Source: Synechococcus sp. WH 7805
Lineage (GTDB): Bacteria > Cyanobacteriota > Cyanobacteriia > PCC-6307 > Cyanobiaceae
Direction: 5' to 3'
NCBI RefSeq assembly: GCF_000153285.1
Contig: NZ_CH724168.1
Coordinates: forward strand, 2,519,455-2,583,454
Length of the DNA: 64,000 bases
Part shown: positions 45,344-48,199 of the stretch, piece after piece
How the letters are laid out: each line of letters starts with the position of its first letter
Numbering within the stretch: the stretch's first letter is position 1
Notes under the pieces: model-generated
Database searches by the model: none
What the model was told of the DNA's origin: nothing
Seen by the model: the letters and a program-made list of their open reading frames with translations, nothing else
Made by a program: the position numbers and the translations under genes

Positions 45344-45394
45344 GGGACCCGTCGTCCTTGATCAGCCACTTTGACAGGAAATGGTGAAGTGCCG

Positions 45395-46240
45395 ATGGAA
45401 TGCTCGGACTCCCGCGGGTCGCGACGGCTTGATTTTCTGCATTGGCCTGATGCCGCGTCAGGGCTGAAAGCTCACCGTTCAACGCTGGTCTGGCCATTCG
45501 GAGCCCTGGAACAGCACGGCCCTCAGCTGCCTCTCGCCACAGATGCTCTCTTCGCGGAGCAGATCCTCAACAGGGTGCTGGAGTCACTCCCTGCCCAATG
45601 GCCGATCTGGTCCCTCCCGCCTCAGTCCATCGGTCTGTCTCCTGAACACCGCGGCTTTCCTGGAACCCTGAGCCTCAGTGCCGACCTGCTGATCCGGTTG
45701 GTCGTGGAGGTGGGGGAGCAGTTGGCGGACCAGGAGGTGAAGCGACTTGTGCTGTTCAACGCTCATGGTGGGCAGATTGGATTGCTTCAGACCGCGGCCA
45801 GGGAACTGGCGGTTCGGGCTCCTTCGATGGCCGTGCTCCCCTGCTTTCTGTGGAGTGGGGTCCCTGGGCTCGAGGCCTTGATCCCGCGCCAGGAGCTGCA
45901 GAACGGATTGCACGCAGGGTTGGCAGAAACAAGTCTCATGCTGGCGCTTGCCCCTGATCTCGTTGGCGTGGAGCGCCCCTGCGACGGCCTTCAATTCTCC
46001 ACGCCTCCTCCCGACGGATGGAGCCTCGAGGGTGCCGCCCCTTGTGCCTGGTTCACAGCCGACATCAGTCACAGCGGAGTTGTCGGAGACAGCCGTGGGG
46101 CCGACGCATTCCTTGGGCAGCGTCTGCGTGAGGTCCTGATTGAGCACTGGACCGGCCTCTTCAAAAGCCTGATGACTTCTGACTGGCCGCCCTCTGCCGA
46201 CGCCAGGCGTGTGAGAGGACCATCAACCGAACATCCATAG
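45395..46240 (+). CDS. Creatininase-family amidohydrolase
   Basis: A 281-residue protein with the creatininase/MftE-like pattern: STLVWPFGALEQHGPQLPLA near residue 30 (metal-binding Glu and His), the TDALFAEQIL aspartate following, NAHGGQIGLLQ near residue 122 and the glutamate in AGLAETSLMLAL near 178. Family members cleave amide bonds in small cyclic compounds, and the substrate here is unknown. The frame opens at a TTG at 45371; the ATG at 45395 is preferred. It is divergent from the S1-protein gene and precedes ADO by 49 nt. Confidence 0.85.
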   Translation: MECSDSRGSRRLDFLHWPDAASGLKAHRSTLVWPFGALEQHGPQLPLATDALFAEQILNRVLESLPAQWPIWSLPPQSIGLSPEHRGFPGTLSLSADLLIRLVVEVGEQLADQEVKRLVLFNAHGGQIGLLQTAARELAVRAPSMAVLPCFLWSGVPGLEALIPRQELQNGLHAGLAETSLMLALAPDLVGVERPCDGLQFSTPPPDGWSLEGAAPCAWFTADISHSGVVGDSRGADAFLGQRLREVLIEHWTGLFKSLMTSDWPPSADARRVRGPSTEHP

Positions 46241-46289
46241 TGGGTTGCACTAGTTACAGTCAGTCGCATCGATGAATACGGAAAGATCC

Positions 46290-47021
46290 ATGCCGACCCC
46301 TGTCACCTCCGAGGTCGCCGTCCTTGACGAGCAGGCTGGGTCCGCTTCGCTGCTCCCCGACTTTTCCAGCGAAGCCTATAAAGACGCTTACAGCCGGATC
46401 AATGCGATCGTGATTGAAGGTGAGCAAGAAGCTCATGACAACTACATCTCACTGGGCACATTGATCCCTGATCAGGCCGATGAACTGGCTCGCCTCGCCA
46501 GAATGGAAATGAAGCACATGAAAGGATTCACATCCTGCGGACGCAATCTGGGTGTTGACGCAGACATGCCTTTCGCAAAAACTTTCTTCGCTCCCCTTCA
46601 TGGCAATTTTCAGACGGCTCTGAAGGACGGAAAAGTTGTGACCTGTCTGCTCATACAGGCGTTGCTGATTGAAGCTTTCGCAATCTCCGCATATCACATC
46701 TACATACCAGTTGCTGATCCGTTTGCACGCAAGATCACTGAGGGTGTGGTGAAGGATGAATACACCCATCTCAATTATGGTCAAGAGTGGTTGAAGGCCA
46801 ATTTCGACGCAAGCCGCGAGGAATTGATGGAAGCCAACAAAGTGAATTTGCCGCTGATCCGTTCAATGCTCGAGCAGGTGGCCGAGGATGCCGCTGTCCT
46901 CAAAATGGAGAAGGAAGATCTGATTGAGGATTTCCTGATCGCTTACCAAGAGGCGCTTGAACAGATTGGATTCACCTCGAGAGATATCGCTCGGATGGCT
47001 GCTGCGGCACTCGCGGTCTGA
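46290..47021 (+). CDS. ado: Aldehyde-deformylating oxygenase (alkane synthesis)
   Basis: Converts fatty aldehydes to alkanes or alkenes plus formate using a di-iron centre. The ligand set of the family is complete and falls at the same positions as in PMT1231: E45 in [12 protein letters not shown]73 and H76 in [10 protein letters not shown], the mid-chain Glu in [11 protein letters not shown], and the pair in [11 protein letters not shown]. That agreement, plus GGAAAG 5 nt upstream, favours the ATG at 46290 over the ATG at 46272. The product is 243 residues. The acyl-ACP reductase that supplies the aldehyde is the next gene, after a gap with a strong hairpin. Confidence 0.97.
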
Positions 47022-47058
47022 ACCCGGAAACCTCGATCAGGTCCGGTTCTCCCACAGT

Positions 47059-47086
47059 CACGTTGTGCACAACACGTGCCAACGTG
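47059..47086 (+). promoter_or_regulatory. Strong hairpin between ADO and AAR genes
   Basis: CACGTTG-t-GCAC-aacac-GTGC-CAACGTG folds as an 11-bp stem with one bulged T and a five-base loop, 37 nt after the ADO stop and 72 nt before AAR. A competing pairing TCCCAC (47050-47055) with GTGGGA (47084-47089) can replace it. The element also contains the palindrome GTTGTGCACAAC (47062-47073). There is no T-tract, so it is not a classical terminator. Confidence 0.55.
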
Positions 47087-47158
47087 GGACCATGATCTAT
47101 CAGCCCACCTTCGCGTGAGCTTCTGTTCCATGCGTTCACACACGACCGTCGGCGGCAT

Positions 47159-48199
47159 ATGTTTGGTCTGATTGGACATTCCACAAGTTTCGAAGCCGCC
47201 AGGCGGAAGGCTTCCGACCTTGGGTTCGATCACATTGCCGAGGGAGATCTCGATGTGTGGTGCAGTGCTCCTCCTCAGCTTGTGGAGCATGTCGAAGTCA
47301 CCAGCCCCACAGGTAAATCCATCCAGGGTGCCTACATCGATTCCTGCTTCGTGCCGGAAATGCTGAGTCGTTTCAAGACAGCACGACGCAAAGTGCTCAA
47401 TGCCATGGAGCTCGCCCAGAAAAAGGGGATCGACATCACGGCTCTTGGCGGATTCACATCGATTATTTTCGAGAATTTCAACCTGCTTCAGCATCAGCAT
47501 GTGCGCAGCACAACCCTGGCTTGGGAGCGTTTCACTACGGGGAATACCCACACGGCCTGGGTGATCTGCAGGCAGGTTGAAAACAATGCTCCGTCTTTGG
47601 GCATCGATCTCAAAAAGGCCTCGGTTGCTGTTGTTGGAGCGACCGGCGACATCGGCAGTGCTGTGTGCCGCTGGCTCTCCTCCCGAACCGGGGTGGCTGA
47701 ATTGTTGCTCGTGGCCCGGCAACAGAAACCACTTGAAGATCTCCGGGATGAGCTGGGTGGCGGTCGGATTCTCAGTCTCGAGGACGCCCTGCCGGAAGCT
47801 GATGTGGTGGTTTGGGTTGCCAGCATGCCGCGCACCCTCGAGATCGATGCGTCACGACTGAAAACACCCTGTCTGATGATCGATGGTGGTTACCCCAAAA
47901 ACCTTGATGCCCGTGTGGCTGCCAAGGGTATTCACGTTCTGAAGGGAGGGATTGTTGAATTCTTCACTGATATTGGATGGTCGATGATGGAAATAGCAGA
48001 GATGGAGAAACCTCAACGGCAGATGTTTGCTTGCTTTGCCGAAGCCATGCTCCTCGAGTTTGAGTCGCATCACACCAACTTCAGCTGGGGGCGGAACAAC
48101 ATCACGCTTGAGAAGATGGACTTCATCGGTGGAGCGTCCGTTCGCCATGGTTTCTCCACCCTCAATCTGCAAGGCCTTCCGCAGGCTGCTGCTGCCTGA
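47159..48199 (+). CDS. aar: Acyl-ACP reductase (aldehyde-forming)
   Basis: Reduces fatty acyl-ACP with NADPH to the fatty aldehyde used by ADO. The 346-residue protein has the AAR N-terminus ([20 protein letters not shown]), a Rossmann motif [20 protein letters not shown] near residue 158, and the conserved C-terminal part ([20 protein letters not shown]). It follows ADO in the usual cyanobacterial order and precedes accA by 20 nt, linking it to fatty acid synthesis. Confidence 0.96.

Follow-up and report, generated by a model that had tools for sequence, protein, structure and literature searches.

The ado–aar gap of WH 7805

The window analysed here is a 64,000-nucleotide stretch of Synechococcus sp. 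WH 7805 (contig NZ_CH724168.1, positions 2,519,455 to 2,583,454 of the forward strand), in which ado and aar lie in tandem, separated by a gap at 47022–47158. Both open reading frames score above the cut-offs of their NCBIfam models (Table 1), and the identities of ADO and AAR are correct. The next gene after aar is accA, again by NCBIfam, which is followed by an SDR-like and then a folE-like ORF, both named from their translations. The ORF upstream of ado (45371–46240) is creatininase-like and falls below the cut-off of all three NCBIfam models that it matched. The nearest named relative is Synechococcus WH7803 (L031), with 94% identity over ADO in a scan of named genomes that may omit records of the own or a very near genome; its ado–aar gap is identical to that of L004.

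Directly upstream of ado, the core CACTRGTTACAGTC, which carries a TANNNT box, is strongly conserved across the genus and is a putative promoter belonging to ado itself. Relatives carry CACTGGTTACAGTC, CACTGGTTATTGTC or GTGGGTAAAGTC at the promoter-core position, and TATTGT and TAAAGT variants are seen in other lineages.

Table 1. Coordinates of features at the ado–aar locus, in positions of the window
Feature	Position	Strand	Evidence or reading
ado promoter core GCACTAGTTACAGTC	46247–46261	+	conserved; TACAGT at 46255–46260 as −10-like box; putative promoter
ado, aldehyde deformylating oxygenase	46272–47021	+	ORF; NCBIfam TIGR04059, 409.5 bits (cut-off 222.65)
CCGGTT	47043–47048	+	conserved element 5′ of the hairpin
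Nested fold of near relatives	47051–47088	+	outer CCCAC 47051–47055/GTGGG 47084–47088; inner GTCACGT 47057–47063/ACGTGCC 47074–47080
11-bp hairpin, 7 + 4 bp, one bulged base	47059–47086	+	minimum-energy fold; proposed ado mRNA 3′-end, terminator-like hairpin
Conserved block GTGGGACCATGAT	47084–47096	+	directly behind the hairpin; CATGAT at 47091–47096 a weak −10-like candidate for aar
CAGCCC	47101–47106	+	counterpart, in the alignment, of the −10-like TANNCT seen in Prochlorococcus-type gaps
CCCAC	47104–47108	+	complementary to GTGGG in the block; alternative pairing on the downstream side
Weak second hairpin	47106–47117	+	CAC/GTG in WH 7805; CACC/GGTG and, by eye, CCCT/AGGG in relatives
aar-proximal stretch	47120–47158	+	probable aar leader; conserved in A1
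aar, long-chain acyl-ACP reductase	47159–48199	+	ORF; NCBIfam TIGR04058, 623.6 bits (cut-off 449.7)

The 11-bp bulged hairpin described in the initial annotation is indeed part of the minimum-energy fold of the gap. Its arms, CACGUUG/CAACGUG and GCAC/GUGC with one bulged U, begin at the 38th base past the ado stop codon and give −14.9 kcal/mol when folded alone. The segments thought to compete with it, TCCCAC at 47050–47055 and GTGGGA at 47084–47089, are complementary as described, and both folds can be drawn; their supposed competition is unbalanced in WH 7805, however, as over 47050–47089 the 11-bp hairpin is worth −16.4 kcal/mol and the nested alternative −12.1 kcal/mol. Position 47058, a G in near relatives, is a T in WH 7805 and a mismatch in the nested fold; this substitution breaks the inner stem, and the 11-bp hairpin is thereby favoured. 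The reported absence of a U-tract is likewise borne out. No T-run stands behind the hairpin, where GGACCATG is found instead, and a terminator scan gave no match at the site. The WH 7805 hairpin is therefore not a canonical intrinsic terminator.

The hairpin of WH 7805 is moderately stronger than expected by chance, with folding z-scores of −1.7 to −2.4. The whole gap has a z of −1.68, and 12 of 200 shuffles fold equally well. For stretches chosen for the hairpin, which makes the values flattering, we obtained −1.98 at 47045–47095 (9 of 200 shuffles as good), −2.39 at 47050–47089 (3 of 200) and −2.27 for 47059–47086 alone (7 of 200). Using crude, ORF-based gene calls over 464 kb of the WH 7805 genome, folding at least as good as that of the 80 nt after ado is seen in 6 of 41 co-directional gaps with the ado gap included (5 of the 40 others), at 6 of 96 convergent gene ends and in 5 of 44 divergent gaps. 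The ado–aar fold thus belongs to the upper part of the gaps of its own genome and is not exceptional there. By a crude rule, a hairpin with a T-rich tail occurs at 8 of 96 convergent ends against 1.6 in shuffled sequence, in 4 of 41 co-directional gaps against 1.6, and in 2 of 44 divergent gaps against 0.8. Since only 8 of 96 convergent ends in this genome bear such a tail, a missing U-tract is little informative.

Hairpins and constraint among relatives

We detected AAR in 29 of the 31 genus genomes and 362 of the 400 family genomes searched. A gap could be extracted at 175 of 179 loci, the other four (L060, L085, L105, L144) having no complete ado–aar pair. Dropping L001 and identical gaps leaves 155 distinct gaps; 62 contain the block pattern RTGRGANNAT and 93 do not, the match in the short, Cyanobium-like L077 probably being due to chance. 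We folded 60 of the 62, leaving out L040 (N) and L077 (too short). Alignment A1 holds the 14 rows of the group of the window, and alignment A2 holds 28 of 30 candidates, L057 and L167 being left out. Group z-scores were calculated for 13 of the 14 gaps of the window's group (ABC, L007 left out) and for 18 of the 30 gaps of the g5 group (sister genus), in which L039–L057 were placed by sequence similarity only. The Prochlorococcus-type set of 32 comprises L095, L096, L099 and L102 from Prochlorococcus records and 28 gaps assigned by AT-rich sequence; where the block pattern was not found, the segment scored was placed 75 nt ahead of the ATG. L177 and L178, which are AT-rich with shorter gaps, were kept out of this set, and eight block-less gaps of the same genus (L021–L023, L025, L026, L028–L030) lie outside the alignments and group z-scores.

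The pairs drawn in the initial annotation do not hold up among close relatives. The 11-bp hairpin is the best fold in only 1 of the 14 A1 rows, that of WH 7805; its pairs are formed in 66.0% of cells, none is changed on both sides, and shuffled alignments do as well or better in 483 of 500 cases. The exact 11-bp fold is a peculiarity of WH 7805, and one half of the refutation set out in the initial annotation, a pairing not kept in relatives, is thereby observed. The covariation of the TCCCAC/GTGGGA pairing in relatives is not above that of shuffles. The nearest relatives, L003–L005, adopt the nested fold instead, with an outer CCCAC/GTGGG stem (CTCAC in L005) and an inner GGCACGT/ACGTGCC stem, and a weaker version is kept in L006. 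What had been called the alternative pairing is accordingly part of the fold common to near relatives. Across A1 the nested fold pairs in 85.1% of cells, again with no double change, so that neither fold shows covariation within the window's own group, where the arms stay largely the same in sequence. RNAalifold on A1 gives two loop-side pairs with double changes (in 2 and 3 sequences).

Two pairings on the other side of the block were also considered. The downstream CCCAC/GTGGG pairing is formed in 87.3% of A1 cells, a value reached by 1 of 500 shuffles; four cells are changed on both sides (0 of 500 shuffles), in two such pairs (20 of 500). The three AU cells of the main pair come from L008, L010 and L011, a single clade in which L008 and L010 are near-identical, and sliding the pairing by +3 gives a higher covariation score. 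For these two reasons the downstream pairing is not relied on here. The weak second hairpin covaries in A2, with 4 pairs and 23 double-changed cells (0 of 500 shuffles) for a structure that was derived from A2 itself; in A1 no covariation is seen. In L007 about 28 nt directly after the block are missing, which leaves that gap with neither a second hairpin nor a TANNCT-equivalent site; the hairpin and block are kept.

Beyond the window's group, a folding excess recurs at the same place. For the 50 nt before the block, the mean z is −1.10 in ABC (13 gaps), −1.01 in group D of the same genus (7 gaps), −1.39 in g5 (18 of 30 gaps) and −1.14 in the Prochlorococcus-type set (32 gaps), versus 0.14, −0.06, 0.22 and −0.05, respectively, in the 45 nt after the block, which served as the control. 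Values below −1.5 are reached by 4 of 13, 2 of 7, 6 of 18 and 10 of 32 gaps. As the rows within a group are akin to one another, these group means are not independent tests. Group g30, to which the named Prochlorococcus record L070 belongs, shows no such excess (upstream mean z −0.12 over 5 gaps; control 0.75). Over the 60 folded block-bearing rows, the mean z is −1.18 through the first six bases of the block and −1.92 when its first 13 are included.

The arms themselves vary by lineage, being ATCGACAG/CTGTCGAT in L043, ATCAGTCAC/GTGATTGAT in L125 and GGTTTGAGTGG/CCCACTTAAACC in L057. L041 too has a folding excess upstream of the block with different arm sequences, and L044 keeps complementary arms at another spacing. 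No hairpin is found in L042 or L135 (z +2.2, measured through the first six bases of the block), and z is clearly positive in L047, L050, L116, L117, L139, L150, L167 and L172; in L042, L047, L116, L135 and L139, for example, the hairpin is missing or weak though both flanking elements are kept. A hairpin thus occupies a constant place, with its sequence turning over, in three groups of marine Synechococcus as well as in the Prochlorococcus-type set, if not in every gap or group. The proposal of an RNA element in this gap therefore stands as regards position and folding excess, and not as regards the particular pairs drawn. By eye, the group D gaps L016–L020, L024 and L027 contain TCACGTAGC...TACATGCTTTCGTGRGAGCATG, a possible H-type pseudoknot in which TCACG would pair with CGTGA and CATGCT with AGCATG; L018 and L019 have variants of it.

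The closest counterpart with a canonical form is found in two Prochlorococcus-type gaps. In L173 and L174, the corresponding place holds a long hairpin with an extended T-run behind it, at z of −5.3 and −5.0. The two look like close relatives, so these T-run terminators count as one lineage. They share with the WH 7805 hairpin its location, past ado and ahead of the promoter-like box of aar, and differ from it in having a longer hairpin, a three-base loop and the T-run, which WH 7805 does not have.

The gap as a whole is under constraint. Compared with the four nearest relatives, L003–L006, the hairpin and block differ at 4–9 of 54 positions (7–17%) and the rest of the gap, from block to ATG, at 8–11 of 62, while four-fold sites differ by 30–41% in aar and 43–53% in ado. 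In more distant relatives the hairpin and block are no better conserved than the remaining gap. As they are not better conserved than the leader, we attribute the constraint to the entire stretch: selection holds the whole gap and not the hairpin in particular.

Conserved elements flanking the hairpin

Two short sequence elements bracket the hairpin. The upstream CCGNTT is invariant in 14 of 14 A1 rows, and its CCGGT form in all 28 A2 rows, as is TGGGA of the block; CCGGT and TGGGA are kept also in A2 rows that have no hairpin. The distance from the end of CCGNTT to the block is exactly 35 nt in 11 of the 14 gaps in the window's group and in 20 of the 30 in the sister group, and 34 nt in 1 and 5 more. 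With up to one mismatch allowed, the block pattern has one site in the window, against a chance mean of 1.36. The two-part pattern CCGGTT-N25-45-RTGGGANCATG occurs once in the WH 7805 genome and in 6 of 25 same-genus genomes, always in the ado–aar gap, and is absent from the other 19; its reversed control gives 3 matches in 2 of 40 genomes. GTGGGANCATG alone occurs five times in the WH 7805 genome versus once for its reversed control, and no CCGGTT lies within 60 nt before the four copies outside the gap.

A −10-like box is seen in Prochlorococcus-type gaps. In 26 of 32 of them TANNCT is located 40–75 nt ahead of the aar start codon (mean 6.3 and maximum 13 over 200 shuffles), and the extended TG-N3-TANN[CT][TG] is present in 22 of 32 (shuffled mean 2.2, maximum 7). 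The box aligns shortly past the place of the block. No TANNNT box is recognisable in the WH 7805 gap, and a sigma-70 match at 47135–47163 has its second hexamer overlapping the aar start codon. Immediately before the gene, the last two bases of the gap are AC or AA ahead of ATGTT in 12 of the other 13 A1 rows (CATGTT/AATGTT), and AT in WH 7805 and L013.

Other patterns are seen in gaps of different type. The eight block-less gaps of the same genus carry a conserved-looking GGGCGTCAATTTCGCCC ... GTTCACC ... CCGTGCTTAGGTGGG, with variants. Short gaps of Cyanobium type (L066, L069, L074, L097, L100 and others) have the near-palindrome GATGTAGCGTCNGCGACATCC shortly before aar, with TGTCGCCGGCGACA in L056. 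In the gaps of L026 and L028, GGGTTCGAATCCC resembles a tRNA T-arm, possibly by coincidence; a 15-nt tmRNA match of 10.9 bits (gathering 47) at 2604–2618 of L028, a gap with no block, is to such a T-arm-like string.

Probable separate ado and aar transcripts

Published data bear on whether the two genes share an RNA. According to Klahn et al. 2014, ado and aar are each transcribed from a start site of their own in all six cyanobacteria studied, among them Prochlorococcus MIT9313 and MED4; blots of four strains (Synechocystis, Trichodesmium, MIT9313 and MED4) show main RNAs that are not long enough to be dicistronic (PMC4094844). The single ado–aar transcript suggested in the initial annotation is thus unlikely, as the start sites are separate in six of six cases. 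In Synechocystis 6803 the ado mRNA ends 75 nt past the stop codon at a Rho-independent terminator (PMC4094844), and ado terminators are described in 6803 and strain SK1-2-1 (PMC12127877). In WH7803, aar is reported as specifically cold-induced in high-light cells, in a passage that names ADO as partner enzyme only and is silent on the behaviour of ado (PMC7393227). The literature searched yielded no mapped ado or aar transcript ends of marine Synechococcus; the terms alkane, decarbonylase and acyl-ACP are absent from the main text of PMC5069720 and PMC7368042. On termination in general, Cascino et al. 2026 describe cyanobacteria as having no Rho and, in S. elongatus, only 22% of units with ends like canonical intrinsic terminators; among 163 defined 3′ ends with no U-tract in S. 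elongatus PCC 7942, a strong upstream structure is present at only 75, and a 5′-TG-3′ dinucleotide at 56 (PMC13289151).

The reading that we prefer, at roughly even confidence, is that 47059–47086 is a 3′-end element of the ado message with the aar promoter or leader directly behind it, the genes giving two transcripts and the gap holding no one-transcript attenuator. RNA polymerase starting at the ado promoter would run past the ado stop codon and, less than 70 nt on, have transcribed the GC-rich hairpin. The message would then end at the hairpin, or be shortened as far as the hairpin and shielded there from further decay, and aar would be made as a separate RNA from the region directly behind. 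With separate RNAs, the ratio of ado to aar would be set by two promoters and by leak-through, and not by a switch within a transcript. In favour of this reading are the excess before the block in several groups, the T-run terminator of L173 and L174, the TANNCT box of Prochlorococcus-type gaps, the constraint on the gap and the published ado and aar units. Against it stand the missing U-tract, the lack of a recognisable −10 box in the WH 7805 gap, the weak or absent hairpin in several marine relatives and in g30, core pairs with no compensatory changes in the window's group, a hairpin and block no better conserved than the leader, and the small share of U-less PCC 7942 ends with strong structure. 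The position of the hairpin and its recurring folding excess with changing arms are observed, as are a terminator counterpart in one related lineage, the conserved block and the constraint; that an RNA ends at it in WH 7805, by whatever route with no U-tract, and that aar starts downstream are what we infer from the sequence.

Several other explanations account for part of these results. As the main rival, the gap could be an aar promoter acting at the DNA level, in which CCGGTT, CACAGGCACG and RTGGGANCATG bind RNA polymerase and an activator, the hairpin being a by-product of a dyad-like site with no need for RNA structure. The invariance of CCGGT and TGGGA in 28 of 28 A2 rows, those with no hairpin included, fits this, as do the exact 35-nt spacing (11 of 14 in one set, 20 of 30 in the other), the largely unchanged A1 arms with no double changes, and the confinement of the two-part pattern to the ado–aar gap, once in the own genome and in 6 of 25 same-genus genomes. 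Against it stand a folding excess that recurs with different arms (L041, L043, L057, L125), arms complementary at another spacing (L044), and a T-run terminator at the same place (L173, L174); the exact pattern is moreover absent from 19 of the 25 genomes, and its reversed control gives matches of its own. We regard this explanation as possible but on the unlikely side. A functionless, ordinary fold of a GC-rich spacer would be in line with the modest z-scores, with the 5 of 40 other co-directional gaps that fold as well, and with the exact hairpin being found in WH 7805 alone among A1. That the gap is constrained and that the excess recurs at one place across groups with a clean control make such a fold improbable.

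The intercistronic attenuator or processing site proposed initially, here in a form in which GTGGG pairs either upstream or downstream, with CCCAC at 47104–47108, and so sets read-through or cleavage in one ado–aar transcript, is quite unlikely in our estimate. Three complementary segments are present, and the downstream pairing exceeds nearly all shuffles in A1, both in cells paired and in double-changed cells. Its AU cells come from one clade, however, and the +3 slide scores higher; the upstream pairing shows no covariation, neither alternative pairing is populated in WH 7805 from 10 to 37 °C, and a dicistronic RNA is not the main product in the four blotted strains (PMC4094844). No known riboswitch or leader family is matched: Rfam 15 gives no match in the window at the gathering threshold, and at E up to 5 over 17 loci it gives four matches, all below gathering and none at the hairpin.

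Three further candidates were rejected. The cold induction of aar in WH7803 led us to consider an RNA thermometer or temperature switch; in a crude test on L004, pair probabilities shift little between 10 and 37 °C (0.67–0.78 upstream, 0.19–0.12 downstream). A leader peptide or an N-terminal extension of AAR starting in the block would stop at once in the window, reading GTG-GGA-CCA-TGA. Finally, the site is not a dispersed repeat, as window positions 46900–47300 match once in the own genome and the two-part pattern likewise occurs once.

Relation to known systems

A more specific version of the preferred reading, that a hairpin marks the end of the ado RNA, is that CCGGTT, the hairpin and RTGGGANCATG form a locus-specific composite element of marine picocyanobacteria, which would end the ado RNA with neither U-tract nor Rho and fire or tune aar behind it, for instance in the cold. 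We consider this unlikely. Were it true, the element would exemplify in compact form the non-canonical termination, so far unexplained, that has been reported in cyanobacteria. If the preferred reading holds, the alkane pathway of marine Synechococcus would consist of two separately controlled genes. One-promoter ado–aar constructs that keep the native gap would then under-express aar, a warning that Klahn et al. gave likewise for Synechocystis (PMC4094844). It would further offer a modest test of how transcripts end with no U-tract in cyanobacteria, which reportedly have no Rho, as the gap carries a T-run terminator in two relatives and a U-less hairpin in WH 7805.

Among known elements, the REP-like GC-rich hairpins that stabilise 3′ ends in E. 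coli are similar in being GC-rich, past a stop codon and free of a U-tract (PMC13289151); unlike REP elements, the WH 7805 hairpin is not repetitive, and 3′ trimming at it is only proposed. The U-less ends of PCC 7942 are also cyanobacterial, and the WH 7805 block begins with GTG at the hairpin, though a TG is often expected by chance; more than half of the PCC 7942 ends have no strong structure, in contrast to the structured site of WH 7805 (PMC13289151). The likeness to the ado and aar units of Klahn et al. lies in the ado–aar order and, in 6803, in a hairpin past the ado stop codon, together with a separate aar promoter, which is putative in WH 7805; the ado-aar-accA-SDR cluster named in the abstract of that report is the arrangement of WH 7805, the SDR by our own reading (PMC4094844). 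The 6803 end is a Rho-independent terminator (PMC4094844), whereas WH 7805 has no U-tract and no clear aar −10 box. An ado 3′-end hairpin with an aar promoter behind it would probably be mostly an extension of the arrangement known in other cyanobacteria.
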